A stretch of DNA of 64,000 bases from contig NZ_QJJZ01000011.1 in the NCBI RefSeq assembly GCF_003201775.1, positions 62,001-126,000 of the forward strand, written 5' to 3'. The notes beneath the pieces are model-generated. The model saw only the letters and a list, made by a program, of their open reading frames with translations, made no database searches and was not told the origin of the DNA. Below are positions 37,670 through 54,359 of the stretch, piece by piece. A program made the position numbers and the translations under genes. Numbering within the stretch: position 1 is the first letter of the stretch; every line of letters starts with the position of its first letter. The DNA is from Arenibacter sp. ARW7G5Y1. GTDB lineage: Bacteria; Bacteroidota; Bacteroidia; Flavobacteriales; Flavobacteriaceae.

Positions 37670-40186
37670 ATGAACGACAAGAATCTGGCATTCTCGGCCA
37701 TGCTACTTTCGGTAACCTTTTTTGCTATTATAGGCTTTATTTCCTATTACCCGATCGTGCAATATCTGGAATGTGATTCACAACTTTCACAAATCATACA
37801 TGATTTCCTTATTCGATTTAAGCCTTTGCAAGAGCCCTTACCCGGAAGAACAATGTTATTGATGTTCATTTTAGGTTCGGTCATGCTATATAATCCCAGA
37901 AAAAAAGAGGGCAAATCATTTTTGACCGGCCTAACGTATTTTGGAATTGGCTGTGTACTCTTATTTATAACAGGATATTTTAAACCTTCCCAAATCAGTT
38001 TGCTCTGGTGCTCTTTGATTTTATATAATATCGGTTTCCTGTTTTCTGTTTCTGGTTCGGTACATCTTTTCCAAGTGATGGACTTTGTCAATGATGCCGA
38101 GGATGACCCTTTTAACGATCGGAACGAAACGTTCCGGCAAATGGAAGAACGCATAGATACAGAGTATTCCGTAAACATTCCCTATGAATACCAATACCAA
38201 GGACAACTGCGGAAAGGGTGGATCAATTTTGTCAATTTATTCCGGGCCTTATTGGTCATAGGAACCCCAGGTAGTGGAAAATCCTTTGCGCTGATCGAAG
38301 AGATTATAGAGCAAATGATAGAAAAAAACTTTACGTTGTTGATATATGATTTTAAGTTCGATACGCTTAGTAAGGTTGCCTATAACTATTGGCGAAGAAA
38401 AAAGGAGTGCACAAACGATGTCCAAGAAAAATCCAGACTACCCGAGTTTTATACTTTGAGTTTTGATGATATAGAAAAATCGCATCGCTGTAACCCTATC
38501 GACCCATATTTAATGCGAAACCAGACCGATGCCGCAGATGCCGCTACAATTATCATGAAAAATCTGAACAAAGATTGGATAAAGCGCAGTGATTTCTTTT
38601 CCAAGAGCGCCATTAGTTTTGTTTCGGGACTGATCTGGTACTTGAAGAAAAAATCCGAGGAGACGGGTGAGAATATCTGCACTTTGCCACATGTCATAAC
38701 CTTATCTACAATAAACATCGAATACTTGTTGGAAATTATGATGAAGGAAGTAGAAGTCCGCAGTCTGATGATCCCTTTCAAGGATGCCATGGAGAGGCAA
38801 GCGGGCCAGCAATTGGCCGGTCAGACCGCAAGCGCCCAGATATCCCTTTCCATGCTGGCCAGCAAGGAAATTTATTACATCATGACCGGTAACGATTTTA
38901 GGTTGGACATCAATAATCCACAAAAACCTAAAATAGTCTGTATTCAAAATAATCCCGACCGTTCCGAAATCTATGCCGCTCCCATAGGACTCTATATTAA
39001 TAAGGTTTTGCAAGTGGTAAATAAACCTGGCTGTAGGCCTTTGGGTCTTATCCTGGATGAACTCCCAACCGTTTTTATTATGGGACTTCGTAAGATAATC
39101 GATACCGGAAGGTCCCATTATGTGGCCACAGTACTGGGTATACAGAGTATTACACAATTGATAGCCGATTACGGCAGGGAACTGGCAGAGGTCATCTTTG
39201 ACAACTGCTCCAATGTGTTCAGTGGAGCTGCAAAAGGGGAAACGGCCCGAAGGATCAGTGAGATATTTGGACGTATCCACCAAGGAAAAAAAAGCAAGGC
39301 AATTTCCAACAACGACACCACTGTAAATTTCAGTACCATTCTATCGGAATTGTTGCCAAAAAGCAAGATTACTAGTATGTCTACAGGCCATTTTGGGGGC
39401 ATTGTCGCAGATACCTTTGAAAACCCTATTGAACAAAAACTGTGTTTTGGGTTGTTAAAACCCAATATGGAATCCAAAAAAATTCAAGGGAAATACGAAA
39501 TGCCAGTGCATAACAAATTTAAAAGTGCAAATCATCAGGAACTAGTGGATTCGAAGATGAAACTGATACACAGCCTAGACTTTTTTGATGTTGTACGGAA
39601 CCTCGATTTTGGTCAAACGAATTATTTGCACTTTTATACGACTTACATTAAGAAGTTTGCAGAAGATCAATACGATAATCATATAAAGCAAATGCAATTT
39701 GTCCCTTTGGCCCATGAGCTAAAATTGTTCGACCATCTACAAAAGTTGGAGGAATTGACAAAGAATCATTCCGACCATACAGAAAATATACAGCATTATA
39801 TTGCCAATCTGGTAGATCGCATGTATATAGACAAGGAAATAGATAGGATTCTGGACGCTAATTTTTTAAAGGTGATCAAAGATATCAATGAGCTTGTTGA
39901 ACGGGAATACGTTCAATGTACTGGAAATAAACCAAAGTTGGTTATTTTTGATGAACACAAAATTGGCGATAAAATAGCGGAATCTCTGGAAAAGGACGAA
40001 GTCATTGCAAAAGATTTTATGAAGAAATACCGCAGTAAATCCAGCAGGGAGTTGGCAGATGCCTTTCGTAGGCAATATGAAACACCTACTTTTGAAAGTG
40101 TTTCTGCGGTTAACCAAACAGATGTATTTACTGATTCTTTGGAAAGCTTATTGTCAAGCTATCCTATAGAAATGTATAAGGAATAA
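37670..40186 (+). CDS. VirD4/TraG-type coupling protein (MobC-like of Bacteroidetes CTn)
   Basis: 838 residues. Four membrane helices in the first 130 residues, then a FtsK/VirD4-type ATPase: Walker A GTPGSGKS at 198-205, Walker B-type LGLILDELPTVFIMGL, and SHYVATVLGIQSITQLIADY (Gln motif). A long C-terminal region has coiled-coil character. Such proteins dock the relaxase-DNA complex to the transfer channel. In CTnDOT the equivalent is named MobC; the same name is used elsewhere for accessory proteins, so no symbol is given. The XRE gene follows 21 bases later and is probably co-transcribed. Confidence 0.9.
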   Translation: MNDKNLAFSAMLLSVTFFAIIGFISYYPIVQYLECDSQLSQIIHDFLIRFKPLQEPLPGRTMLLMFILGSVMLYNPRKKEGKSFLTGLTYFGIGCVLLFITGYFKPSQISLLWCSLILYNIGFLFSVSGSVHLFQVMDFVNDAEDDPFNDRNETFRQMEERIDTEYSVNIPYEYQYQGQLRKGWINFVNLFRALLVIGTPGSGKSFALIEEIIEQMIEKNFTLLIYDFKFDTLSKVAYNYWRRKKECTNDVQEKSRLPEFYTLSFDDIEKSHRCNPIDPYLMRNQTDAADAATIIMKNLNKDWIKRSDFFSKSAISFVSGLIWYLKKKSEETGENICTLPHVITLSTINIEYLLEIMMKEVEVRSLMIPFKDAMERQAGQQLAGQTASAQISLSMLASKEIYYIMTGNDFRLDINNPQKPKIVCIQNNPDRSEIYAAPIGLYINKVLQVVNKPGCRPLGLILDELPTVFIMGLRKIIDTGRSHYVATVLGIQSITQLIADYGRELAEVIFDNCSNVFSGAAKGETARRISEIFGRIHQGKKSKAISNNDTTVNFSTILSELLPKSKITSMSTGHFGGIVADTFENPIEQKLCFGLLKPNMESKKIQGKYEMPVHNKFKSANHQELVDSKMKLIHSLDFFDVVRNLDFGQTNYLHFYTTYIKKFAEDQYDNHIKQMQFVPLAHELKLFDHLQKLEELTKNHSDHTENIQHYIANLVDRMYIDKEIDRILDANFLKVIKDINELVEREYVQCTGNKPKLVIFDEHKIGDKIAESLEKDEVIAKDFMKKYRSKSSRELADAFRRQYETPTFESVSAVNQTDVFTDSLESLLSSYPIEMYKE

Positions 40187-40207: not shown

Positions 40208-40606
40208 ATGAAAGATATTGACGAGATGATGAGAGCCTCTACTGAGGGTTTCGCATACATCAGCGAACGTTTAAGGATGATTCGAGAAGAACTGATCGAA
40301 AAGGATACCGGCAATAAACGTTCAAGCGAGTTTTCTATTAAATCGATTACCGAACGTTTTGATATGGACTATAATACCTTGGTCAATGTAGAACGGGGGG
40401 CCATATCACTGACCACCATAAAATTGGTTTTGTATTATTACTCATTGGGCTATAATCCGGCATGGATTCTTACGGAGGATAACGAATTCATTCCAAAGGA
40501 CAATATAGGGGAGAATATTGTCTACCAGACCGATGTTCAAGAGGAATACAAGGAGTTAGAATCTGCCATTGTTAATGCCCTTACGGAGTTTAAGAAGAAA
40601 ATTTAA
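40208..40606 (+). CDS. XRE-type helix-turn-helix regulator
   Basis: 132 residues. The helix-turn-helix is at about 38-75 (FSIKSITERFDMDYNTLVNV, ERGAISLTTIKLVLYYY), followed by GYNPAWILTEDNEFIP, a typical continuation, and a helical C-terminus (EEYKELESAIVNALTEFKKK) suited to dimerisation. Such small regulators commonly control conjugation modules. Position after the coupling gene suggests feedback control of the transfer module, but its target is unknown. Confidence 0.75.
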   Translation: MKDIDEMMRASTEGFAYISERLRMIREELIEKDTGNKRSSEFSIKSITERFDMDYNTLVNVERGAISLTTIKLVLYYYSLGYNPAWILTEDNEFIPKDNIGENIVYQTDVQEEYKELESAIVNALTEFKKKI

Positions 40607-40906
40607 AAATAGATTGAAAAATTAGGGCTGGTAGAAAGGTTAACATCCTTTTATTGTTGAACATAAATTCATCTTCATTTCGTCATTTTGAAATCGAATT
40701 TCCAATAATGAAAAGTAACTTATTATGAGAATTAGTCAATTAGCAATGTTTTAATGTAGCCTTCCCTAAAAAATGGGTAAGGCTACAATTCATGGCCAAT
40801 AAATTCATCCCCTAAGAGATTTCTAAAATATTCTCCTTAAATGTGGATATTCGAGTATTATTTTGAGTTTCCAATGATAGCCACAACTTCCCCATTGTTG
40901 TAAAAT
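40607..40906. other. intergenic region with hairpin
   Basis: A strong hairpin at 40755-40787 (TGTAGCCTT/AAGGCTACA plus inner CCC/GGG, one bulge) lies between convergent transcripts of the XRE gene and the cargo operon. It lacks a T-run but probably stops plus-strand transcription. No gene is seen. Confidence 0.55.
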
Positions 40907-40938
40907 ACTCTTTACAAAAGGTGCGATTTGTAAAGAGT
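40907..40938 (-). terminator. 12-bp hairpin downstream of the helicase cargo operon
   Basis: ACTCTTTACAAA and TTTGTAAAGAGT form a perfect 12-bp stem with an 8-base loop, 43 bases past the helicase stop codon on the minus strand. There is only a short T-run (ATTTTA), so it may act as a weak terminator or mRNA stabiliser. Confidence 0.65.
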
Positions 40939-40980
40939 CAGAGTAATTCATCAATATTTTGGTTTATCATAAGTATGACC

Positions 40981-43900
40981 TCATGACCAAAAACCTTTAA
41001 ATTTTGACCATAAATTGTCTTTTTCTTTAGGCTTTGTACTATTACCACTTTCGGCTTTATTCGTTTGTGTGCTAGTGGTTCTTTTTTTAGTTTCACTCAT
41101 GTCGAAAGTCTCTTTTTCTTTGGATACTGTCTTTGCGTCTAGTTTTGATTCTGTTTTTACTTTTTCAACACTTTTAGTATCATTCTTTTCTTCTATTAGA
41201 TTTGAAGCCCTATTGCTCGATTCATCTTTGAGATGTGCCTCTTTAGCAATAACATTAAGTTCATCTTCAACCCTCTCGGAGATTAATTTTTCATAAATAT
41301 AAATCTGCATAACGTAGTCTTCAGGAAATTGCGAAATAGCTTTTTTTCTATAATCACTATCTGCAAATTTTGACATTTTTAGTTTTGCATCAATTTGTTT
41401 GTCATAAACATATTGTTGCATATCATAATCTAAAGGAAAACTTTTAAGTGCTATATTTTTGATTTCTTTATCTTTTACAGAGGCCATATAATTCTTAGCA
41501 AGAATACTTTTATCATAGATGTGCTGTTGCATGCAAAAATCATTCTTGTATTGTTTTATCGCGTACTTTTCTAGTTCTTTATCCGTCACAGTTTCCATAA
41601 ACAAAAATGCTAATACCTGATTCTTGTATACATGATCCTGCATTTCCTTATCTAATGGATACTCTTTTTTTGCAAATCGTCTTATTTTAGCGTGCACTTT
41701 TTTGTCTAGCTTTTTTTCTTTATCAGCTGCTGGTTCATTTTCTAATTTCTTAACCTCCTTATTTTTTTCTTCAATAAATATAGCTTCTTCATTATCTCTA
41801 AGGTCCTCTTCAATTCCATGCTTTTTTCTTAATATAGCAGCGGCTCTTTCTATATATGCCTCCCTCTTTTCATCTGTCAATAGGGAGAAACCCACTTGCT
41901 TTTGGCTTTTTTGATTTTCTTTGTTTTGAGTTATATTCTCTACAATTTTGGATAAACCTTTAAATTCAAAAGTTATTGGTTTAGTTGCTTCTTTAAATTC
42001 AATAGTATATTCCCCTTTTGATTCATTTACTTCAATAATTTTTCCTTCATTCCAAATTGCGTGTTTAACTATGTCTCCTACTTCGAATCTCTTTTGAATT
42101 AGTTGACGTTTAGCGTTTAAGACTAACTGTTCTTTTGCTTCTTTAATTATTTCTTGACTTAACTCTCCTTTACGAACAAAATAACTCTCGCTAATTTCAA
42201 ATAAAAACCGAGATGGATATTTACTCAAACCTGTACTTAAATTGAAGCCTTCTGATTCGGTCAAATAAAATGCCTTTTCAGCTCTTGTTATAGCTACATA
42301 AGTTAAACGTCGCTCTTCTTCAAGCGCTTTGGCTCGTCTTTCTTTAATCGACATTGCGCTAGGCAGCACACCTTCTGTAAAACCACAAAGAAAAACGTAT
42401 GGAAACTCAAGACCTTTCGAAGTATGAATGGTCATTAATTTGACTCTATCATTTTTATCATCATCAATATCCATATCTGTATAAAGAGCAATCTCTTGCA
42501 AATATTCAGTAAGGTTTATAGGTTCTTCATCTTGGCTTTCTAATAGAATAATTGAGTTCTGAAACTCTTTAATATTATCTAGCCTATCCGTATCTCCATC
42601 AGTTCTATAATAAGCTGAAAGACCGCTTTCATCCATTATTTCTTTTACTAGATCAGAGATAATTAAATCAACTTTTGTTCTCTTAAACTTCTCGACAAGT
42701 TCAATGAAATCGATTGCTCCCTTGCGCTTTAGGTCCTTTTCAGATATGTTTTCTTTTAATGCAGTATAAAGAGAAACGTTTTCTTTCTCGGCGATTTTGG
42801 CAACATTTTCAATAAATTTTTTACCTAAACCTCTATTGGGTCTATTAATAACCCTTAGAAATGAAAAATCATCTTCAAATTCAATCAATCTTAAATAGGA
42901 TAAAACATCTTTAATTTCTTTGCGTTCAAAAAATCGTATCCCACCAAAAACTGAATATGAAATGTTCTCTCTTATTAGAGATTGTTCAATACTTCTAGAA
43001 ATATGATTAGCTCTGTATAATATTGCAAAATCAGAATGTTTACAGCCTTCATCCTTTACCAGTCGTTTAATTTCATTTGCTACCCACAGTCCTTCCTCGT
43101 AATCATTTTTACCATGAAAATGAACCACTTCAACACCTTCTGGGTTTTGGGTAAACATGTCTTTATCGACTCTTATTTTGTTGTTTTTTATGATGTGATT
43201 TCCAAGACTTAAAATATTTGGTGTAGAGCGATAATTTTGATTCATTATAATTGTTTTTGAGTCAACAAATTGCTTATCAAAATCAACTAAAATTTCAGGT
43301 TTGGCGCCTCTCCATTCGTATATAGTTTGGTCTGGATCTCCAACAACAAAAAGGTTTTTATGTAATTGAGAAAGCATCTCAATCAACATAAATTGTTTTT
43401 GTGAACTATCCTGTGTTTCATCTACTTGAATATAGTGAAGTCTTTTCTGCCATTTTTCAAGTACCTCTGAGTTGTTTGAAAAAATGTAAAGAGTGAAATT
43501 GATTAAATCATCAAAATCTAAGGCAAAGTTTCTTTGTTGTTTTTCTAAATACCGAATAAAGACTTTTTCTATTTCGTTATCTGTTTCTTTTTTCTTTGAA
43601 TCAAGGATGTATTGCAGATATTCCTGTGAAGTTTTTTGTTTACTGATGTATCTTAAAACTTGTTTAAAAGTGAATACTTTGGAAGTTAAACCTAATTCAT
43701 TATAAACCTGCCGAAGAACAGTTTTTTGGTCTTCAACGTCCATTATGACGAAGTTTTTTGGATATTGGATTTTGTTTATGTCTTCTCTTAAAACTCTAAC
43801 ACAAAATCCGTGATACGTAGTGATGTAACTTAAATCAGAATTTTCACCAATTAATCTTTTTACCCTTTTACGCATTTCTTGTGCGGCCTTATTTGTAAAG

Positions 43901-44085
43901 GTTACACAAAGTATACTAGATGAGTTAATCCCTAATGCTTCAACAATGTAGGCGTATCTATTGGTTAGCGCTTTAGTTTTACCTGAGCCTGCGCCAGCAA
44001 TTACCCTAACGTAACCTTCAGTTTCCATGACAGCTGCTAATTGCTGTTCATTTAAATTTTCCTTAAGTCTTTCGATACCATCCAT
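40981..44085 (-). CDS. UvrD/Rep-type SF1A helicase with Tudor-like and repeat C-terminus
   Basis: 1034 residues. Core SF1 motifs: Walker A AGAGSGKTK (31-38), VTFTNKAAQEM (61-71), VDETQDSS (221-228), VVGDPDQTIYEWRG (247-260), NQNYRSTPN (282-290), TIHTSKGLEFPYVFL (552-566), EERRLTYVAITRAEK (590-604). A small beta domain (666-715, KRFEVGDIVKHAIWNEGKII) is like the Tudor-type end of PcrA. Unusual is what follows: four tandem 37-residue repeats (804, 841, 878 and 915 onwards) and a charged, Ser/Thr/Lys-rich tail. It is the last gene of a five-gene minus-strand operon; the 5'-nucleotidase stop is 17 bases before its start. Confidence 0.92.
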   Translation of the reverse strand: MDGIERLKENLNEQQLAAVMETEGYVRVIAGAGSGKTKALTNRYAYIVEALGINSSSILCVTFTNKAAQEMRKRVKRLIGENSDLSYITTYHGFCVRVLREDINKIQYPKNFVIMDVEDQKTVLRQVYNELGLTSKVFTFKQVLRYISKQKTSQEYLQYILDSKKKETDNEIEKVFIRYLEKQQRNFALDFDDLINFTLYIFSNNSEVLEKWQKRLHYIQVDETQDSSQKQFMLIEMLSQLHKNLFVVGDPDQTIYEWRGAKPEILVDFDKQFVDSKTIIMNQNYRSTPNILSLGNHIIKNNKIRVDKDMFTQNPEGVEVVHFHGKNDYEEGLWVANEIKRLVKDEGCKHSDFAILYRANHISRSIEQSLIRENISYSVFGGIRFFERKEIKDVLSYLRLIEFEDDFSFLRVINRPNRGLGKKFIENVAKIAEKENVSLYTALKENISEKDLKRKGAIDFIELVEKFKRTKVDLIISDLVKEIMDESGLSAYYRTDGDTDRLDNIKEFQNSIILLESQDEEPINLTEYLQEIALYTDMDIDDDKNDRVKLMTIHTSKGLEFPYVFLCGFTEGVLPSAMSIKERRAKALEEERRLTYVAITRAEKAFYLTESEGFNLSTGLSKYPSRFLFEISESYFVRKGELSQEIIKEAKEQLVLNAKRQLIQKRFEVGDIVKHAIWNEGKIIEVNESKGEYTIEFKEATKPITFEFKGLSKIVENITQNKENQKSQKQVGFSLLTDEKREAYIERAAAILRKKHGIEEDLRDNEEAIFIEEKNKEVKKLENEPAADKEKKLDKKVHAKIRRFAKKEYPLDKEMQDHVYKNQVLAFLFMETVTDKELEKYAIKQYKNDFCMQQHIYDKSILAKNYMASVKDKEIKNIALKSFPLDYDMQQYVYDKQIDAKLKMSKFADSDYRKKAISQFPEDYVMQIYIYEKLISERVEDELNVIAKEAHLKDESSNRASNLIEEKNDTKSVEKVKTESKLDAKTVSKEKETFDMSETKKRTTSTQTNKAESGNSTKPKEKDNLWSKFKGFWS

Positions 44086-44102
44086 TGTTCAATAGTTAAT
44101 GG

Positions 44103-45035
44103 TTATTTTTTTGCTTCAACTCCTTGCATTTTAGAGTCTGAACTATAAGGAACTTTTCCTGACGGAACTACTTTACTTGTTTCTTTTAAATGAGTCTCTT
44201 GGTCATCAAAAAAAATGTGGGCTCCAAAAGCTTTTAGAACTTTATCTTTAGATAAACCTCCTAAAAAATGAGCTTCATCAACATAAACTCCCCATTTTCT
44301 TAAGGTTTTAATTACTCGCATATGAGATGGAGCATTTCTTGCAGTTACAATTGAGAGCCTTAGTGGAGTAAGTTCTATTGATGTTGGTAAATGCACTTGT
44401 ATTTTTGAAAGTTTGATTAATAGTTTTGCAAAAGGACCTTCATTTAACGGGTCATCTTCATGTTCTGATTCATATTTATGGAAAGCTTCCATTCCCTCTG
44501 TTTTGTAACGATACTCTGAATCTTCAGAAAACAATACTGCATCAGCATCAAAAGCAATTTTAACTCTATTGTCTTTTGGGTCAAACTCTGTTGGTGGTGC
44601 ATAGATAGATGCAGCCGCACAAGCGCCTGAATCAATTACAGCCTGAACGTCTTTATCATCTTTGGACAAGAAGAGATCAACGTCATATGCTTCAATGTAT
44701 GGTGAAAGTGGTTCGCCACCCGATAAAGCAACTCTTGTAATATCAAGTTTATGTTTTGTAATTGAGTTTAACATTCTAACCCCAGTTTCTGGACTGTTTC
44801 TGGACATAACAACTACTTCCACAATTCTTTTGTCTGCTTGATTATTAAGTTCAAGTAGACTTTTAACTAATACAAATGCGGTACCAGGTTCTAAAGCTTC
44901 GTCTTCCCTTTCTTGTTGGTATTTTCGATAACCTTCAATTCCTTTTTTGTCAAATACAGCATTTTCCGATTCCAAATTGAAAAGTGCTCTCGATGAAACC
45001 CCTATTACTAAAATATCTGAAAAATCTACCGGCAT
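44103..45035 (-). CDS. cytosolic 5'-nucleotidase I family (cN-I/NT5C1-like)
   Basis: 310 residues with two homologous halves. The second half contains the catalytic D-x-D (Asp163-Ala-Asp165 in IAFDADAVLFSEDSE), followed by FHKYESEHEDDPLNEGPFA and the late FLGGLSKDKVLKAFGAHIFF. The first half repeats the plan (IGVSSRALFNLESEN, QEREDEALEPGTAFVLVK) but with VSS at the Asp position, so it is probably inactive. The family removes phosphate from nucleoside monophosphates, in eukaryotes AMP and dNMPs. In this context, inside a restriction/helicase/nuclease operon, depletion or processing of nucleotides during infection is a reasonable but untested role. Confidence 0.85.
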   Translation of the reverse strand: MPVDFSDILVIGVSSRALFNLESENAVFDKKGIEGYRKYQQEREDEALEPGTAFVLVKSLLELNNQADKRIVEVVVMSRNSPETGVRMLNSITKHKLDITRVALSGGEPLSPYIEAYDVDLFLSKDDKDVQAVIDSGACAAASIYAPPTEFDPKDNRVKIAFDADAVLFSEDSEYRYKTEGMEAFHKYESEHEDDPLNEGPFAKLLIKLSKIQVHLPTSIELTPLRLSIVTARNAPSHMRVIKTLRKWGVYVDEAHFLGGLSKDKVLKAFGAHIFFDDQETHLKETSKVVPSGKVPYSSDSKMQGVEAKK

Positions 45036-45053
45036 ATTTTTATAATTTGTTTT

Positions 45054-47015
45054 TTAATCAATCAACTCCTTAAAATGCTCATAAATCATAACCATTGCTA
45101 AGGTGTCTAGCTCGCAGTATTTAAAAAGTGCATTAGTTAACTCATCAATTTCATTTTGGGTCATATCTGTGTATTGAAGTTTACCATATGCTGTCAACGC
45201 AGCTCCGCCATTGGCAATATCTTCTATGTCCGATAAGGCATCTTCTATCTGGTCTTCACTCCATCCTTCAAAGACTGATGGTAACATTTTGTATGGGTCC
45301 TTTACAATACCTTTATCAATAACTAACCAAATGTGATCATCAGAAAAATTCTTACTTGTAACACTTATCTGATTAATAGGTTTAGAGTACTTATTTTGTA
45401 AAAAATCACTTTTAGCCAAGGAGGAAGGTAAAACAGCTTTTAGCGAATTAGATCCTTTAGTTAATGGGTTGTAATAATACCGTTTTTCAATATCCCATAA
45501 ATCCACCATATCACGTTCTCCTTTCCATTTTAAGGCGCTATCTTTTTTAGAGTGTGAAATGGAATGTATAAAAGTGATGAGTGAATCTTTATCAGGTTCA
45601 TCTGAGTTTAATAATTGAATGTAGATGGCATTTAAAATAGAATTCTCGTGATTTGAATATCTAAAAATTGTGCCTTTGTCATTCTCTAAAGCAGCTTTTA
45701 GTGCTCGAATGAATTCAAAATTAGGGAAGATACCTGCCTTATTATTGATGTATTCATTCGCATGAATTATGTTACCATCTCTATGGTAGATGTGATGTGA
45801 AAACTGAAAAGCAATTTGCTCGTATGGTTTTAGGTTTTTATTAAAAGGTAAGGCAGCTGCACTTGTTTCAAAATCAATAAAGTGAAGTGGAAAAACGAAT
45901 GTATTCATTACATCCTTTAGCCCATCTTTATCCACATATATAAATGTGTCATCGCTTACGTCCTTTTCTATTTGGAGCCATTGCCTATGCGAGGTTGTTA
46001 ACCGCCCTGGGTCTTCTTTTAAATCTATATTTTCTTCTGTAAGTTCACTTTTGAAATATATACCCTGGTCAAATAACTTATTGCCTTTTCTAAAATCGTA
46101 AATATCAAAAACATTAGGTTTAAGAAAGTCGGTAGATGTCCAATTATGTTGTTTATTGAAACATTCCTTGAATCCGGATTTTAAATCTTGTTCTTCTTCT
46201 AAATTGTTACATTTAAACTCGCACTTTTTACAAGAAGTATAACTTGTTGGCCAATTGGCGTACTCGTCCTTTTCGTAAACATTTTTGAATAATAGAATTG
46301 CTTCTTGAAAGCTCAAATTGGGATGATACATGTGCGTGTTAATCTCAATATCCCGTATAATTTGAGTAATATCTTTTTTTCCTAATACAGAATCTCCTGT
46401 TTCTTCAAGAGAATGTACTTTCTTAATTATCCCTGTACGATTACCTCCTTTTTTAGTAATTCTAAATAATTGATTCAACCCATTAATACTGGTTTTTTTA
46501 GACTTATCAACCATTATAAAGAATGACCTGATTTCCCAAGACGGAAAGGATTGTTGCATTACGTGCTTTTGGAATGCAACATCAAACAAATAAGGTTTCC
46601 AACCAGCTACCATGCCACTCTTTTTGCCTATTAGTAGAAATTCATTTTCAGGTGTAAATGATTTTGATTTTACTTCTATTAGCTGAATTTTATTGCCCTT
46701 TTTAACTAGTATATCTACTCTAATAAATAAATCGTCAAATAGAAAAGCTGCTTCATAAATAACAACATTTTCTTGCTTTAATAAATCTTGTGTTTGATTC
46801 CATGCCGTTTCATATTCCCAAGGATTACCCTCTATCAAGATTCCATTAGGATAATGCATTCTTGCAAGTTCTTCAACTTGAAAACCACCTTGTGCTAAGG
46901 CCTCTAAAAATGGGTCTTCTTTTTTGGTGTTTGCATATTCTTTCTTGCCCGTGTAATAAAGCTTATTGGGGCATTCAAGGCCTAGTTTAAATTTTGATTT
47001 GGTTAGTAACCTCAT
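45054..47015 (-). CDS. Cas4-like nuclease fused to DnaQ-like exonuclease (DUF2779)
   Basis: 653 residues from the ATG at 47013-47015; a TTG four codons earlier is less likely. Part 1 (about 1-290) is a PD-(D/E)XK nuclease of Cas4/RecB type: Asp101 in FDDLFIRVDILV and Glu114-Val-Lys116 in QLIEVKSKSF, with Cys15 at the N-terminus and Cys262, Cys265 and Cys269 (SCKKCEFKCN), and possibly Cys285, which together suit a 4Fe-4S cluster. Part 2 (about 370-650, DUF2779) is DnaQ-like: Asp381-Phe-Glu383 in HFIDFETSAAALPFN and Asp637 in FKYCELDTLAMV. It should act on DNA ends or transferred strands. Confidence 0.85.
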   Translation of the reverse strand: MRLLTKSKFKLGLECPNKLYYTGKKEYANTKKEDPFLEALAQGGFQVEELARMHYPNGILIEGNPWEYETAWNQTQDLLKQENVVIYEAAFLFDDLFIRVDILVKKGNKIQLIEVKSKSFTPENEFLLIGKKSGMVAGWKPYLFDVAFQKHVMQQSFPSWEIRSFFIMVDKSKKTSINGLNQLFRITKKGGNRTGIIKKVHSLEETGDSVLGKKDITQIIRDIEINTHMYHPNLSFQEAILLFKNVYEKDEYANWPTSYTSCKKCEFKCNNLEEEQDLKSGFKECFNKQHNWTSTDFLKPNVFDIYDFRKGNKLFDQGIYFKSELTEENIDLKEDPGRLTTSHRQWLQIEKDVSDDTFIYVDKDGLKDVMNTFVFPLHFIDFETSAAALPFNKNLKPYEQIAFQFSHHIYHRDGNIIHANEYINNKAGIFPNFEFIRALKAALENDKGTIFRYSNHENSILNAIYIQLLNSDEPDKDSLITFIHSISHSKKDSALKWKGERDMVDLWDIEKRYYYNPLTKGSNSLKAVLPSSLAKSDFLQNKYSKPINQISVTSKNFSDDHIWLVIDKGIVKDPYKMLPSVFEGWSEDQIEDALSDIEDIANGGAALTAYGKLQYTDMTQNEIDELTNALFKYCELDTLAMVMIYEHFKELID

Positions 47016-47101
47016 GTTAATTAACAATCTTTAATTTGTCATATGGTTTCTGTTTCCTTCGTCTGTCATCCTTTTCAAGTCCTAAAACAAAGAATCATTC
47101 C

Positions 47102-47353
47102 TTAGTCTTCGATTATCAATTTTTTGTCTATTAAAATAACTTTCTTAGAATAACCATTTGTTTCTGAAAAGTCAATTTCTCTTTTTATTAATTGATATTT
47201 TATAGCACTTAAGTAACTCATTCTAGCTGAGCCTGAGCCTCCATTATTTACTTGGCCATTAAAAACCTCTACCATTTCCATATCTGATAGGGTATCAAAT
47301 CTTAAATTATACTCCTCATATAATTCATGTTGTAAATTCTTATTACTCTCCAT
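47102..47353 (-). CDS. 83-residue unknown protein in cargo operon
   Basis: Starts at ATG 47351-47353, five bases after the restriction enzyme stop, so it is probably co-translated. Sequence is mixed charged, with no signal or membrane helix (MESNKNLQHELYEEYNLRFD, a Gly/Ser stretch NNGGSGSARMS, and a KKVILIDKKLIIED end). Not recognised. It could be an accessory or inhibitor for the large enzyme, or a small partner of the next nuclease. Confidence 0.6.
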   Translation of the reverse strand: MESNKNLQHELYEEYNLRFDTLSDMEMVEVFNGQVNNGGSGSARMSYLSAIKYQLIKREIDFSETNGYSKKVILIDKKLIIED

Positions 47354-47358
47354 GCCTT

Positions 47359-50300
47359 TTATTTTTCAATATTCTCAACAATCGCAATCTCGTCCTCCGT
47401 CAACCCATACAATTCATAAACCATCCTGTCTATTTCTATTTCTGTAGTGGCGATTTGTTTTTGAAGTTCTTGTGCTTTTTTCTTGTTCTCTTCAAAAAGT
47501 TCCATCCACCCAAATTCATCTTTTTCGGTTAAATCTGACACAGGTTCAAGGTTTTCTTCCGCCCTCGTTTTATTTGTGACTTTGATGGCATTGTTAAGCT
47601 CTTTGATGAAGTCACCAAACGATAGTTCATGCCAATTTTCAAGTTTTCGGGAGATTTTAAATAAATCAAATTTTTCTGTTAGATATTTCAAATATCTTAA
47701 TTTGATACTATCAAATTGTGGCTGAAGTATTTGTAATTTTAAACCAAGTTTAGAAATGTTTACTCTTGAGGTAATATTGCATTTAGGCAGAGGAAAAGCT
47801 CCTAATTTGTCCAGACTAATTTTTGCAAATACTTTCCCTTTAATATCGTGTAGCAACCTATAGAAAATAGTAGCCACATTAGAATTTAAGATCGTAATTA
47901 AGTAGTCGAGAGAATAATCTTCGGTTTTGGCATAAATACCATGTATAAGTGTGTCAAAATAATAATTGTTAATGTCTTTAGCAGCTATAAACCTGTCTCC
48001 AGTTTTTCTAACTACAATTTTTTCGGTTTCAAAGAGATCAGGTGTACGTAATGCAAAGTCAATACGCGATTGTTTCTTCATTCCCTTTTTACTTTTGATA
48101 TCATCAAGACTTATGGTTTCCGCTATATCATAGTCATAATTTACGAATTGACCTCCCCATTGAATTGAATTGGGATTTAACTCTTTTCCCCATATTATTG
48201 GTTTATGTTTTTCAGAAAGCTTTTCATCTGAAATAAGTATTTGCTTAATATTCCCTGGATTGAGTCCGTTTTTTAATTCATAATAATCTCTTATTGGTGT
48301 TAGAAGATGAAGCTTTTTTACGACTTTATCAGCGCCTTGAGCAATAGGGGAAATTTCAAAATGTGGGACTGAAAGAAAAAACTCTTGAGTTATATTATTT
48401 AATAGTGCCGCCTGCCCTTCATAATCAAAATATTTATCTACTGATATCAGCTTAATTTCATTTGAAATAGTTGGGTTATTAATTATCTCAAACTTTAAAA
48501 TCAAACTTCCACCAACTTCCGCATCAGGAAAAACTTTTTCCGATATCATAAATATTTCGTGAACTTTAGATTGAGTGAGTAGATGTTCTCTAATGTTCTT
48601 AAAATAGGTATTGAATAAAAGAGATTTCGGGATTATAAATTGAAATAAACCTCTATCAAATATCTGAAACATTCTTTCTATAAATAAAATGTATAGATTA
48701 ATTTTATAGTTGGTTAACGGGTATTTCACTTTGTAATATTCTTCTTCTTCATTTGATATGAAAATACCATAAGGCGGATTCCCAATCACCACATCAAAAC
48801 CACCATCAGCAAAAACATCAGGAAACTCATTTTCCCACTTAAACGCTTTGTCACCAGCAACTTTTTTGTCATCGACCAGACTATTCCCACATTTGATATT
48901 GCTGCTTAAGTCGTTCAGCTTTCGGCGTGGCTGTGCCGTACGTAACCAAAGGGAAAGTTTGGCGATTTCCACACTTTCTTCGTTCAGGTCTACGCCATAA
49001 ATGTTATTTTCAAGAATGGTGTTTTCAATATCTGGAAACTGCAAACCACCACCTAAAATTTTGGTTTTGAGTTCATCAATATAGGTATGTTCATTAATCA
49101 AAAAATCAAGAGCTTGGTTTAAAAACGCTCCAGAACCACAAGCAGGGTCACAAATTGTCAATTGTAATAACCAATCTCGATATTCATCAAGAATTTGGAC
49201 AAGCCTTTCTATGGTAGTTTTATTACGATTTTTACGACCTTTAAAATACTCTTCTTCGTGGAAGTCTAACTCAATTTTCTTTTCTTCACAAAGTTTACCA
49301 ACCGTATTTTCTACTATATACTTGGTAATATACTTTGGTGTATAGAAAACACCATCTTTCTTACGCTTGCTGGTTTGCTTATCAAATTCACCCCCTTCAA
49401 TTTCTGAGCTCACACTTTCGATCTCGTTGAGCGAGTTTTCGAAAATATGACCCAAAATATTCACATCTACCTGACTTTCAAAATCGTAATTGGATAAGCT
49501 AAGGGTGTACTTGTACAATAGGTCACTATCAATTTCTACAGCATCAAGAATAGCGTCTGGCTTAAACAAGCCACCATTATAGGCATATATCTCGGCACGG
49601 TTTTGAGTTCCTATCCTTCCGGTATCCAAAAAATTAAAATACTGTTTAAACAGATCATACAATGGACGTTCATCTCCGAAATCTTGATCATTTTTCCATT
49701 TTTTAAGAATTTGCAAGGTGGAGTTGGATGGCAATAACATCCGGTCTTCAGCAAAAAATATAAACAGAAAACGGTCTATCAGTTTTTGTGATTTTTTAAA
49801 TAACGTCAGTTTCACATTCTTCTCCAGACGGGCTATGGCGACCTGTTCATCGGCATCGATATTGGCACTGAGCTTCGCCTTGACGGTTTTAGAATTGTTG
49901 CGCACTAAATCTCTGAACAGTTCACGCTTAAATACAGAATAATCCTTATAAAAAGCTTTGGTAATTTGTTCTTCCTCAGCAATAGACGCCTCCTTTATTT
50001 TAAGTGAAGTATTATTTAGAATGCTGTCAATATGCAAACATAAATACAGTAGTTTAAATCTGTCTTGTGAAAGTGTGAACAAATCAAACTCTTCAAACTC
50101 TGTGGCATCGTTGATATAAAAACGTAGCTTTTCAAAATTTGATGTGACTACATAGATACAACCTTTTTGATTTGCTTTATAATCGAACGCTTGGCGACGA
50201 ATACTCTCTAGGTCCTTCGTATTGGTTCCTTTTAATTCAATAACTCCAATAGCACTTCCATCCTTTAGAATTGCACCGTCTGCTTTGCGTGCATTCTTTT

Positions 50301-50541
50301 CGTTTTTAAACTCTGTGGTCAGGTTTGAGTTAGGGTTAGGGAATAACGTATAGCCTAATATATTAACGAATAATTCATTAAGAAATGTTGCTTGATATTG
50401 TTCTTCTTTTGCACTTTTGATATTTTCCTGTATCGTAGTGTTCCAGAAGTATTTTTGATACTTTTTATATGCCTTATCGACTGCTGCTTGGTTGAGTAAA
50501 GCGAGATGTGATTTAAGTACGGATGTTTGGAATAATGCCAT
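47359..50541 (-). CDS. type IIG restriction-modification enzyme (Eco57I-like)
   Basis: 1060 residues in one chain. An N-terminal PD-(D/E)XK nuclease is seen at about 80-135: Asp88 (KADGAILKDGS) and Glu102-Leu-Lys104 (IELKGTN), then YVVTSNFEKLRFYI. A linker (about 200-390) leads to an N6-adenine methyltransferase: GVFYTPKYITKYIVENTVG, SAM motif DPACGSG (465-471), and catalytic NPPY (588-591). The C-terminal third is target recognition (PIIWGKELNPNSIQWGGQF) and helical. Such enzymes cut and methylate with one recognition domain. First gene of the minus-strand five-gene operon. A BREX PglX-type role is less likely, as no other brx gene is present. Confidence 0.9.
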   Translation of the reverse strand: MALFQTSVLKSHLALLNQAAVDKAYKKYQKYFWNTTIQENIKSAKEEQYQATFLNELFVNILGYTLFPNPNSNLTTEFKNEKNARKADGAILKDGSAIGVIELKGTNTKDLESIRRQAFDYKANQKGCIYVVTSNFEKLRFYINDATEFEEFDLFTLSQDRFKLLYLCLHIDSILNNTSLKIKEASIAEEEQITKAFYKDYSVFKRELFRDLVRNNSKTVKAKLSANIDADEQVAIARLEKNVKLTLFKKSQKLIDRFLFIFFAEDRMLLPSNSTLQILKKWKNDQDFGDERPLYDLFKQYFNFLDTGRIGTQNRAEIYAYNGGLFKPDAILDAVEIDSDLLYKYTLSLSNYDFESQVDVNILGHIFENSLNEIESVSSEIEGGEFDKQTSKRKKDGVFYTPKYITKYIVENTVGKLCEEKKIELDFHEEEYFKGRKNRNKTTIERLVQILDEYRDWLLQLTICDPACGSGAFLNQALDFLINEHTYIDELKTKILGGGLQFPDIENTILENNIYGVDLNEESVEIAKLSLWLRTAQPRRKLNDLSSNIKCGNSLVDDKKVAGDKAFKWENEFPDVFADGGFDVVIGNPPYGIFISNEEEEYYKVKYPLTNYKINLYILFIERMFQIFDRGLFQFIIPKSLLFNTYFKNIREHLLTQSKVHEIFMISEKVFPDAEVGGSLILKFEIINNPTISNEIKLISVDKYFDYEGQAALLNNITQEFFLSVPHFEISPIAQGADKVVKKLHLLTPIRDYYELKNGLNPGNIKQILISDEKLSEKHKPIIWGKELNPNSIQWGGQFVNYDYDIAETISLDDIKSKKGMKKQSRIDFALRTPDLFETEKIVVRKTGDRFIAAKDINNYYFDTLIHGIYAKTEDYSLDYLITILNSNVATIFYRLLHDIKGKVFAKISLDKLGAFPLPKCNITSRVNISKLGLKLQILQPQFDSIKLRYLKYLTEKFDLFKISRKLENWHELSFGDFIKELNNAIKVTNKTRAEENLEPVSDLTEKDEFGWMELFEENKKKAQELQKQIATTEIEIDRMVYELYGLTEDEIAIVENIEK

Positions 50542-50805
50542 TAACTATTGTAGAGTAATATTGAACGTCTAAAATAGTAAAACTTAATGAGCATTAATAC
50601 TTTAAACATCTATAGGGTGTTAGTATTTTATTTACAAAATTCAATTTTATTTACTGCACTACTTCCTGCAATTATCTATTTTTCCAAATGTCCCTATTTT
50701 TAGCATTCCTTGGATTATGGACTTGATGTGAATCTTCAATAAATGAGGTTCCATAAAGGTATAAATTGCACTCGTACATTTCATTCCTAAACCGACACTA
50801 AACAC

Positions 50806-51891
50806 TTAAGAGGCTTCTAAAACAGCCATCAATCTATGGTTGAGATATAATTTTTCCTTTCCTACTTTTTCAGATATTAAAAACCCAGCTTCTTCCAATG
50901 CTATTAGATAATTACCAACAGTTTTGGGTGTTCCTAATTTGGCATCGATTAAAAATTGTCTTTTAGTATATGGCAATCTAAATAATATTTCCACAAGCTC
51001 TTTAGTATATACTTTTGGCAAGGTTTCTTTAATTTCCGTGGTCATTAATTGCATTAGATCGGTTACGTCCTTTAAACGCTGTAATCCCTTTTTAGCAGTG
51101 TATTCTACCATATCGAGCATATATAATATCCACGATTCCCATGCATTATTTTCGGTAACCTCACGTAGTTTGTTATAATAATCAGCTTTATTTTTTATAA
51201 TATACTCACTTAAGTAAATAGCAGGTGTATCCAGCAATTTTTCAAGTTTTAAATAGAGTAACAACAAAATACGTCCTGTTCTCCCATTACCATCGTTAAA
51301 GGGGTGAATTGCTTCAAATTGATAATGCATTAATGCCATTTTTATTAATGGGTCCATAGCATCTTCACCATTAATAAAGGTTTCTAGATTTGCCAATTTC
51401 TCTCTTATCACATTTTCACCTATAGGTGGCGTGTAGATAGTTTCACCTTTTGGATTTTTTAAAGCAGTTCCTGGTGTTGTTCTAATGCCAGCAGTATTCT
51501 TTTTAATACTTTGAACAATTTCAATGCACAAATTTGTACTTATAAAAGGGCGTTTTTCTATATCGCGCAGTCCATTCCAAAGGGCTTCTTTATAGCTTAT
51601 CACTTCTTTTGTTGCAGGATTATCAAACTTTTTATCCGCCACTATAGATTTATACAGATCATCATTGGTGGTAATAATGTTCTCTATTTCGGAACTCGCT
51701 TTTGCTTCTTGTAGATGTATGGTGTCCAAAAACAGCGTTGGGTTTGGTAAATTGGTGAGCATACCATTTAGTTGTGCCAATGCCCTACTGGCATCAATGG
51801 TCTTACGCAACACCTTTGTAGTTTCCAAGGTTGCTTTCGGTGGCAATAAGGGTAGGTTATTGTATGGCGTATTTCTATTAAATGCTGTCAT
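50806..51891 (-). CDS. Fic-family AMP-transferase (Fic-N type)
   Basis: 361 residues from the ATG at 51889-51891; a TTG three codons earlier is ignored. The Fic motif is complete: IHPFNDGNGRTGRILL (His196 to Arg207). An inhibitory helix is present in front of it (SSEIENI, residues 66-72, matching S/T-x-x-x-E-G/N), so this is a self-inhibited class. A winged-helix-like C-terminus (KRQFLIDAKLGTPKTVGNYL, then LEEAGFLI) could bind DNA. It should transfer AMP to a protein target. It lies upstream of the five-gene cargo operon in the same direction, 264 bases away; possible roles are toxin or regulator. An inverted-repeat control region lies before it. Confidence 0.92.
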   Translation of the reverse strand: MTAFNRNTPYNNLPLLPPKATLETTKVLRKTIDASRALAQLNGMLTNLPNPTLFLDTIHLQEAKASSEIENIITTNDDLYKSIVADKKFDNPATKEVISYKEALWNGLRDIEKRPFISTNLCIEIVQSIKKNTAGIRTTPGTALKNPKGETIYTPPIGENVIREKLANLETFINGEDAMDPLIKMALMHYQFEAIHPFNDGNGRTGRILLLLYLKLEKLLDTPAIYLSEYIIKNKADYYNKLREVTENNAWESWILYMLDMVEYTAKKGLQRLKDVTDLMQLMTTEIKETLPKVYTKELVEILFRLPYTKRQFLIDAKLGTPKTVGNYLIALEEAGFLISEKVGKEKLYLNHRLMAVLEAS

Positions 51892-51894
51892 TTT

Positions 51895-51991
51895 GAACAA
51901 GAGTAATTATTACTTACGTTGAATTAACGAGGGTAAATATAACGAAAATTTACCTTTGTTATCGATATAAGGGTAAAACTTACTCTTGTTC
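51895..51991 (-). promoter_or_regulatory. inverted-repeat control region of fic gene
   Basis: Two nested pairs: outer GAACAAGAGTAA (51895-51906) with TTACTCTTGTTC (51980-51991), 12 bp perfect; inner GGTAAAT (51932-51938) with ATTTACC (51948-51954). A third GGGTAAA lies at 51971. It starts 3 bases before the fic ATG, so binding would cover the translation start. An autoregulatory operator, bound perhaps by the winged helix of the Fic protein itself, is a reasonable inference. Confidence 0.6.
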
Positions 51992-52064
51992 ATAATTAAG
52001 ATTAACCTGTTCCCACTTGCATAATTGCCATTGCTATGTTTTCATATCCTCAATAATCAATTAA

Positions 52065-54359
52065 TCAGGAGAGGTAAATTCCATTTCGCTTGGAATAATC
52101 CGTAAGCTCGTCTTTAAACCCATTAAATACTTCTTCCTCCTTATAATGGCTACCTCCCAAAAGAGAACTGAAGGCAAAGGCACTCCTACGCAAAATAGTT
52201 GCCTGTTGTGAATTCAACTTTTGTTTGGATACTTGAAGTAACCATTCCCGCAACCCCTTTTCTAAATGGTATTCCATAACGTCCTTATCCAAATTTGGAC
52301 GTAATTTATCGTAGATCATCATAAAAGCAACTTTACCGTATAATTCTTTTTCTATCAAATAAGAAAGCCATAAATTTTTAAGCTGTCCCCTACCCTCGTC
52401 CATTATATTGGATAATGTTTTGGATTGCTCGTTCAACACTTGATCCAAATTCTTGATCGATTTAAGATATGCCTGGGTTTTTAATGCTAACGGAATACTG
52501 ACCCCATGTTTTGAATAAATAGAGCTGATGCAAATATCATCCTCTATTTGCTTAAAATTAAATCCCTTGGCGTTGAACAGTTTTATATAATCGCTTGCGG
52601 ATTTTTCGTATGGCAAATGGAGCCGTTCCGTTTTATGGAGATATGCCTTTAAGCTATGTTCTTCAAACCGCTTTCCATAATCCAGAGTCATTGAACTGTA
52701 TAATTGGGGCAGTAACATGGGAAGGAAAAAAGCGGTGGCGCTTAAATCAAGAGCCTTACACCCTTTTTCTTCCATTAACACTTCCAATACCTTTTCATTT
52801 TGATTGATACAACCAAAGGATATGTAGGCTTCATTCTCATTTGGAATATGATAATTGTCCAGGAACATCTTAACGGAATGGATATTGGAGTTGCTATAGG
52901 AAATTGAACCATTACTATATTTGAGGCCTAAACCCTGTAGCAAATGAAATAAGGTAGTTTGGCTCCCAGAAATATCGAATACATTGGCTTCCAATACCTT
53001 TTTTAAAATCGAAACCCTGTTTTCCAGTGTTTTTAGTTCTTTTTTCGATTCCTTTATACCCAACATCATTCGCATGCTCTCAAATTCCTTTTGTACCGAA
53101 ATCAATAAGGTACTACCATTATTTTCGGGCATATAATGGTTTAGAAATGAATATTGTTCAGAACTAGCTAAAAAGGGCAGCAAATCCTTAAAGCTTTTTA
53201 TTATTACAAATTCCGATAACATCATTTTACCTTTATTGGCATCCAAGTAGGATTTATAAAAGGCATTTTTTATTAGTTTTTGTATTTCAAGAACAAACTG
53301 GTTGCTATCCACATCTATGCTGGTTTCCCCATCCTCGGAATTGTTTATCTGTGGATGGTTTACGACATCTATTTCTGAACCTATTTCCGAAGTACTACAT
53401 ATAAATCCTGATTTATCATAGATGATAATATCACTTGGTTGCATTTCATTATCGTAAAGCAATTCACAATCCAGATTCTGATAGGATTTAAGTACATCCA
53501 GCAAGTTTTCATAATGTATGTTCTCGAACAATTTAAATGTGGTCATTATCTGTTTTTCCAAACGCTTTTGTACCATAGGCAATAGTTTGGAACGCTTGTT
53601 CCGCTCAAAGACCTTTTGCAATTTTGGACCGCTAAGTTGTGGATGTACAGTGGACCCGTTGATAAATCTTGATCTGTATCCATCTTCCACTTCTATGCCA
53701 AACGATACGCCTATCCTGCCATTGTGGTCCATCGTCCTTACTTGGATGTGGTGCGGTCTCAATATTTCGGACAATTCTTTAAAGCTTCGCACCTTGTACT
53801 TCTGGAGCATGTTGTTTGTGATATCCTGTATATAGAACCTGACCCCGTTAATGTCCTCGTTCTTGAATTGTGGGATCCGATAAATTGGAAGCTCCCTGTC
53901 TTTAAGTGTTTCAGGCGATAAGGAGAGCCCAAACTGTTTTTCAAGGTATTTCTGTGTCGCTACGTTCCTTTTGAAATCATTGGAAAGGTTTATTTGCAGA
54001 CAATCTTCCCTTATGGTGGTCGAGACTATGTGGACATGCTCGTGCTTGGTATCGTGGTGGCGTACCACCATATAAGGTTGTTCTCCATAGCCCATATGTT
54101 CCATGTACGCTTTGGACAGTTCAAAAAAGTCGATGTCTTCCAAATGTTCGCCTCGGGGAAGATTGATAGTCGCATGTACATATCGTCTTTCAGAATCGTG
54201 CCGATTGCCGAGATAGTAAAGGACCCTACCGAAAAATGCTGTGTTGGTATCGGTATCCGAATAGGTGTTCTGGAAGCCGAGTATGGTGCTATCGGCCTTG
54301 CCCAATACATAATTCATTACCCCCTGCACATTATTCCGATATAGTATCCTTGCTATCAT
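52065..54359 (-). CDS. conjugative relaxase (MobB-like of Bacteroidetes CTn)
   Basis: 764 residues. Relaxase domain at 1-200: N-terminal MIARILYRNNVQGVMNYVLG, then the three-His metal motif HHDTKHEHVHIV (His106, 108 and 110) and YVHATINLPRGEH. Candidate nicking Tyr residues are Tyr8, Tyr17 and Tyr48/49. The long C-terminal part (about 250-764) has no domain I recognise. Relaxases nick oriT and stay bound to the transferred strand. In CTnDOT the relaxase is called MobB. The accessory gene ends one base before its start codon, so they are coupled. Confidence 0.88.
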   Translation of the reverse strand: MIARILYRNNVQGVMNYVLGKADSTILGFQNTYSDTDTNTAFFGRVLYYLGNRHDSERRYVHATINLPRGEHLEDIDFFELSKAYMEHMGYGEQPYMVVRHHDTKHEHVHIVSTTIREDCLQINLSNDFKRNVATQKYLEKQFGLSLSPETLKDRELPIYRIPQFKNEDINGVRFYIQDITNNMLQKYKVRSFKELSEILRPHHIQVRTMDHNGRIGVSFGIEVEDGYRSRFINGSTVHPQLSGPKLQKVFERNKRSKLLPMVQKRLEKQIMTTFKLFENIHYENLLDVLKSYQNLDCELLYDNEMQPSDIIIYDKSGFICSTSEIGSEIDVVNHPQINNSEDGETSIDVDSNQFVLEIQKLIKNAFYKSYLDANKGKMMLSEFVIIKSFKDLLPFLASSEQYSFLNHYMPENNGSTLLISVQKEFESMRMMLGIKESKKELKTLENRVSILKKVLEANVFDISGSQTTLFHLLQGLGLKYSNGSISYSNSNIHSVKMFLDNYHIPNENEAYISFGCINQNEKVLEVLMEEKGCKALDLSATAFFLPMLLPQLYSSMTLDYGKRFEEHSLKAYLHKTERLHLPYEKSASDYIKLFNAKGFNFKQIEDDICISSIYSKHGVSIPLALKTQAYLKSIKNLDQVLNEQSKTLSNIMDEGRGQLKNLWLSYLIEKELYGKVAFMMIYDKLRPNLDKDVMEYHLEKGLREWLLQVSKQKLNSQQATILRRSAFAFSSLLGGSHYKEEEVFNGFKDELTDYSKRNGIYLS

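Follow-up and report, generated by a model that had tools for sequence, protein, structure and literature searches.

Several described protein families come close to parts of the locus reported here. Restriction-modification (RM) enzymes of type IIG (Eco57I/MmeI-like) carry an N-terminal nuclease-like region, an N6-adenine methylase core and a TaqI-like specificity domain on one chain. Within the RNase H-like superfamily, DUF2779 proteins constitute family F.17, with a DUF83 domain (PD-(D/E)XK-like) and a predicted 3'-5' exonuclease domain, according to PMC3985635. For the PADLOC candidate PDC-S08, PMC10855318 gives an even split into resistant and susceptible strains among 100 P. aeruginosa strains. 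Nucleotide-depleting defence enzymes like dCTP deaminase and dGTPase remove nucleotides. We analysed a window, i.e., a stretch of 64,000 nucleotides from Arenibacter sp. ARW7G5Y1 (contig NZ_QJJZ01000011.1, positions 62,001 to 126,000), in which genes of the type IIG, DUF2779 and PDC-S08 families stand in one cluster of five minus-strand genes (40981-50541 of the window) within a conjugative element. Occupying a variable slot of this Bacteroidota element, these five genes probably make up a composite defence cargo and not one five-protein machine.

All five genes are uninterrupted according to the analysis of open reading frames (ORFs). They encode, in this order, a type IIG RM enzyme of 1060 amino acids (47359..50541), an 83-residue protein (47102..47353), a DUF2779 (PF11074) protein of 653 amino acids (45054..47015), a PF06189 5'-nucleotidase of 310 amino acids (44103..45035) and a UvrD/PcrA-like superfamily 1 (SF1) helicase of 1034 amino acids (40981..44085), which has the UvrD N- and C-domains of Pfam and ends in a tail built from about four repeats of 37 residues. 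The intergenic gaps amount to 5, 86, 18 and 17 bases if the DUF2779 gene starts at ATG 47015; with the upstream TTG as start the 86-base gap shrinks to 74 bases. Of 17 aligned relatives, five have the residue of this ATG as their very first one, and the rest begin a few residues earlier. The GC content of the five genes is 32.9%, compared with 38.3-39.2% for the relaxase, the TraG-like gene, ORF132 and the coupling protein. An earlier note on this DNA had described five AT-rich genes in the same direction with these gaps, located between coupling protein and relaxase, and both descriptions were borne out. At the gathering threshold, a tRNA was the only noncoding RNA found in the window, and the cluster region had no match among plasmids at the DNA level.

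The surroundings of the cluster are conjugative: profile searches detected coupling protein, relaxase, MobC, TraG and TraM families. Relatives of the coupling protein of the type IV secretion system (37670..40186, plus strand) were found at E<=1e-60 in 17 of 299 family genomes, own genome included, and eight of the related elements were compared. ORF132 (40208..40606, plus strand) follows the coupling protein in all eight and represents the conserved left boundary of a cargo slot (40607..52064), the right boundary of which is a MobA/VirD2-type relaxase (52065..54359, minus strand), assigned by Pfam and element comparison. In six elements transfer genes come right after ORF132, with no relaxase and no cargo at this position. 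The relaxase is next after ORF132, as in the window, in the remaining two (G222 and G227), which makes their slots comparable. Besides an Orf5/HEC-06-like and a PDC-S02-like gene, the slot of G227 contains genes for a type I restriction enzyme and a methylase and an unmatched gene for 318 residues; that of G222 is about 1 kb long and harbours a PDC-S05 gene together with a small unmatched one. The slot holds defence genes or candidates in both comparable relatives, an observation supported by two cases, which are few. Because of this comparison, the type IIG and PDC-S08 matches and the defence neighbours of DUF2779 and nucleotidase relatives elsewhere, we regard the five genes as defence cargo; in this respect the proposal of the earlier note found support.

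Within the type IIG enzyme Pfam detected the domains Eco57I, N6_Mtase and TaqI_C, with Eco57I and TaqI_C above the cut-off, and the PADLOC model REase_MTase_IIG (PDLC03609) matched residues 1-691 (E 3e-261). The methylase motifs DPACGSGAF at 465 and NPPYG at 588 are present together with a TaqI-like target recognition domain, as is an ELK motif at 102-104, which we take to be PD-ExK. Since the Pfam model of the nuclease end, MmeI_N, stayed below its cut-off (19.6 vs. 27), the assignment of this end is based on PADLOC and the ELK motif. Judged from its sequence, the polypeptide unites nuclease, methylase and target-recognition domains, just as known type IIG enzymes do, whereas the genes behind it are not known as their usual partners. 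A gene for a SoFic-type Fic protein (50806-51900) lies on the same strand in the same slot, 264 bases upstream of the cluster, and should be counted with the cargo; its score with the NCBIfam SoFic model is 417.7 bits, below the cut-off of 550. The 83-residue protein had no family match in the Pfam scan. Its gene occurs in two of 249 family genomes, own genome included, and among 395 phylum genomes in the own genome only, and it gave no match in plasmids and no relative in viral contigs. The one relative (G039, 49% identical) adjoins a type I restriction operon and, used as query against 79 genomes near G039, retrieved only its own source. For the type IIG enzyme no relative was found in viral contigs, and one was found on a plasmid at E<=1e-100 (Pontibacter, 32%). 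On this plasmid (L241:5736-10036) a Fic gene stands upstream of the type IIG gene, as in the window, and an ATP-dependent endonuclease/helicase pair is located further up.

The DUF2779 protein is predicted to be a Cas4-like PD-(D/E)XK nuclease fused to a DEDD-type 3'-5' exonuclease. Invariant in 18 sequences are D105, E118-V-K120, the cysteines 19, 266, 269 and 289, as well as D385, E387, Y637 and D641 (numbering of a 657-residue reading; the aligned relatives are 27-80% identical to the window protein). We take D105, E118-V-K120 and the four cysteines to be the Cas4-like nuclease site and D385, E387, Y637 and D641 to be the DEDD catalytic positions, so that both motif sets would be complete. 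The fold of the structure model (mean predicted local distance difference test, pLDDT, 80.3) resembles that of one chain in a Cas4/Cas1/Cas2 complex (match probability 0.99). Since no E-value fell below 0.001, fold evidence alone is weak. The same two domains are predicted for family F.17 in passages of PMC3985635 that do not place the family in defence, whereas the relatives found here adjoin several defence systems. A literature search on the name DUF2779 gave no paper titled as defence, and a term search in the DRT3 preprint PMC13174585 found no mention of it.

DUF2779 matches were obtained in 38 of 249 family genomes; besides the own genome, 16 have close copies, some of them broken. For the comparison with PADLOC the ORFs within 5 kb were taken at 15 of these loci, the 16th being dropped for its short contig, and 14 control stretches were drawn from 14 of the same 15 genomes. 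At E<=1e-20, 139 PADLOC families were matched by the 110 ORFs at the 15 loci, compared with four by the 129 ORFs of the controls, each of these through a single protein (mad3, mad8, RTasHel and a NERD+UvrD model); these counts refer to families and not to proteins, and one protein may match many models. With named queries, genes of DRT3, Wadjet, type I restriction or Hhe-like systems or for a dCTPase or dGTPase were found near DUF2779 at eight of 15 family loci and in none of the 14 controls. This locus count is partly circular, most query proteins being derived from those very loci, and the family stretches are longer than the controls (260 kb vs. 168 kb); no such circularity affects the PADLOC comparison. 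Both DRT3-type reverse transcriptases are encoded near DUF2779 at three loci (L038, L039, L040) and one of the pair at L036, whose contig starts within the nearer reverse transcriptase gene. At these four loci about 126 bases separate a DRT3-type reverse transcriptase gene from the DUF2779 gene downstream of it. At L044 (4699-12088) the Wadjet gene jetA starts four bases downstream of DUF2779, with jetC two genes on, and at L031 an Hhe-like/PDC-S37 gene is nearby. A dCTPase or dGTPase gene stands by DUF2779 at two of the 15 loci, in each case as direct neighbour: a dCTPase (E 1.6e-111) at L032, where type I restriction genes are also near, and a dGTPase (E 1.6e-74) at L033.

Of 27 matching plasmid records, 19 DUF2779 neighbourhoods were read. 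Here, the nucleotidase was present in two, Qat genes in one, type I restriction matches in two and dGTPase in four, the latter all on Arcobacteraceae plasmids (L160, L164, L231, L232) whose copies are 85-99% identical to the query copy and were counted once, as one lineage. On these four plasmids the dGTPase recurs with variable cargo, including DUF2779, upstream. Among 13 viral-contig DUF2779 loci one had a restriction match; neither dCTPase nor dGTPase nor nucleotidase was found at these 13 loci or in the 14 control stretches.

The 5'-nucleotidase is covered over nearly its whole length by PF06189 and matches PDC-S08 at residues 1-302 (E 5.5e-129). It is an internal duplication, with a score of 95 for half against half and 46 for the best of 200 shuffles. 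The first lobe is degenerate and has no D-x-D motif, whereas the second retains D163, D165, T231, K263, D277 and D278, which are invariant in nine sequences and which we take to be HAD-type catalytic positions. The earlier note had recognized the two lobes and had assigned the inactivity to the wrong one. Near full-length match and conserved acidic motifs mark it as a member of PDC-S08/PF06189. By its PADLOC name PDC-S08 is a single-gene candidate, whereas the window nucleotidase is one of three tightly spaced genes. It also differs from dCTP deaminase and dGTPase, genes of which adjoin DUF2779 at L032 and L033, in that a member of the 5'-nucleotidase family is expected to act on monophosphates. 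Own genome included, the nucleotidase has matches in four of 249 family genomes. From at least 571 relatives in named genomes, the best 80 were examined with flanks of up to 10 kb, many shortened by contig ends. The 145 nearest ORFs at these 80 loci match 91 PADLOC families, a figure weakened by the control set, which comes from the DUF2779 genomes and is not phylum-matched to the nucleotidase set. Neither dCTPase nor dGTPase gave a match at the 80 loci. One relative is encoded beside type III restriction genes in an element bearing a coupling protein. On an E. coli conjugative plasmid (L067:766-4070) a nucleotidase of the PF06189 family is flanked by a gene for fosfomycin resistance on one side and a transposase on the other.

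The genes of the cluster travel apart. We searched (E<=1e-3) the neighbourhoods of 16 close and three remoter DUF2779 copies, with at most about 8 kb on each side and less at contig ends. Genes for the nucleotidase, the helicase and the 83-residue protein were absent from all 19, and the only type IIG match was a weak one to the methylase (18%). In the 80 nucleotidase neighbourhoods there was no helicase, 83-residue or Fic gene; DUF2779 occurred once (Arcobacter, L134, 4.4 kb apart) and weak methylase matches twice. Five loci of the helicase or its tail, one of the 83-residue gene and one type IIG plasmid showed none of the other four genes, except for a weak methylase match (21%) near the 83-residue gene. 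No further combination of the five appeared at the helicase, tail, 83-residue, type IIG, plasmid and viral loci checked, so that at most two of them, DUF2779 and the nucleotidase, were together elsewhere in the neighbourhoods examined.

That the five genes form one integrated, rare or new defence system, as the earlier note had proposed, is very unlikely from these data. A compact same-strand set of five intact genes with similarly low GC would suit such a system, whereas conserved co-occurrence and a second example were missing from the neighbourhoods examined; the searches of 395 phylum genomes covered only the tail and the 83-residue gene, so a rare copy could be missed. The set of four genes without the RM enzyme was not seen to recur either. 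Of the two outcomes that the note had named as speaking against its idea, the first, the last four genes always being apart, comes close to what was found; the second, ordinary housekeeping settings free of mobile or defence neighbours, does not. We prefer the composite cargo to one module because the genes travel apart and their relatives adjoin unrelated restriction systems (type III, Eco47II, type I).

Apart from the limits of the PADLOC counts given above, several observations weigh against this preferred reading. Short gaps of 5-86 bases and the lack of a terminator-like site in any of them fit a single operon; the only minus-strand site of this kind lies inside the DUF2779 gene, and the promoter and terminator scans, being at chance level, decide little. 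Seven of the 15 family DUF2779 loci are without match to the named defence queries, and the plasmid loci L157, L233, L238 and L239 are without recognised annotated restriction or anti-phage system. A second nucleotidase of the own genome (72%; G000:C2:338995-339924, L057) adjoins redoxin and MORN-repeat genes, a setting not evidently of defence. Furthermore, an Arcobacter plasmid has DUF2779 and nucleotidase genes side by side, with type I restriction genes and a Fic gene behind them, and because of this repeated adjacency the pair may be functional. This pair, a truncated Sphingobium nucleotidase encoded beside DUF2779 on the opposite strand, the gaps of 18 and 17 bases and the dCTPase or dGTPase next to DUF2779 at two of 15 family loci would all agree with DUF2779, nucleotidase and helicase as a degradation and nucleotide-removal module, separate from the type IIG, 83-residue and Fic genes beyond the 86-base gap. 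We consider such a module rather improbable, as a helicase of the window type is absent from the 19 DUF2779 and the 80 nucleotidase loci, the five helicase or tail loci have neither partner, and two tail-less helicase relatives lie in apparent chromosomal repair surroundings, as read by eye. Just as the second nucleotidase, the location beside transfer genes could mean that the five genes serve the element itself in repair, transfer or establishment, and UvrD and Cas4-like enzymes act in repair too. This has little probability, since a restriction enzyme leads the set, the slots of two relatives carry restriction or defence-candidate genes, relatives occur in defence-rich surroundings, and six of eight related elements have transfer genes straight after ORF132 and no cargo.

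In the composite cargo, the type IIG enzyme, with the Fic and 83-residue proteins beside it, would modify the host DNA and cut unmodified incoming DNA, a restriction function well grounded in its domains. Behind it stand three separately mobile accessory genes with the same reading direction. From family knowledge, the UvrD helicase may open DNA ends, the Cas4-like/DEDD double nuclease may degrade them, and the 5'-nucleotidase may remove the phosphate from released nucleotides, which an invader could then not reuse. Transcription as one unit, breakdown of the cut DNA and the nucleotide sink are all inferred; cooperation of DUF2779, helicase and nucleotidase is the weakest step. On balance, we regard the cluster and its defence context as real and a single system as not demonstrated, with DUF2779 as the part deserving follow-up. 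Tentatively, and with more doubt than confidence, DUF2779 might be an undescribed defence nuclease that is interchangeable among many immune systems, namely DRT3, Wadjet, type I and IIG restriction, Hhe-like and Qat, and that is repeatedly combined with a nucleotide-removing enzyme (dCTPase, dGTPase, 5'-nucleotidase). In the window it would degrade DNA opened by restriction enzyme and helicase while the nucleotidase destroys the monophosphates ("shred and do not recycle"). If the cargo reading alone holds, conjugative elements gain a further example of a slot that carries defence genes. If the DUF2779 pattern holds, it would turn a family of unknown function into an accessory nuclease with broad use in bacterial immunity, establish a testable link between DNA destruction and the removal of its nucleotide products, and offer a reason for the occurrence of the 5'-nucleotidase family in defence-rich surroundings.

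Comparison of the cluster with further systems mainly concerned the helicase. It falls below the cut-offs of the housekeeping models (PcrA 631.2 vs. 911.2 bits, UvrD 540.1 vs. 1144.45). Among the slot genes scanned, its match to GajB models of Gabija (336.5 bits) is not accompanied by a GajA-like ATPase/nuclease domain, nor its match to RTasHel (352.4 bits) by an RVT domain as expected for a DRT or reverse transcriptase-associated helicase; for BREX, PglX reached 125.6 bits against a cut-off of 500 and no other BREX domain was found. The tail of units of about 37 residues had been called novel in the earlier note; it is not unique, being present in four of 395 phylum genomes, own genome included. 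Its structure model (mean pLDDT 49.5) was not used. The tail had no match in plasmids and the helicase no relative in viral contigs. The two tail-less relatives were found among 60 genomes near G318. The G318 helicase itself (L154:8444-13384), 61% identical to that of the window, carries the same repeat tail; its gene immediately follows one for a retron-type reverse transcriptase (RT_VI model, E 6.7e-78) and stands beside Eco47II restriction and modification genes. In G629 (L155:9633-10121) the tail repeat builds a stand-alone protein of 162 residues, the start of which resembles a signal peptide by eye.

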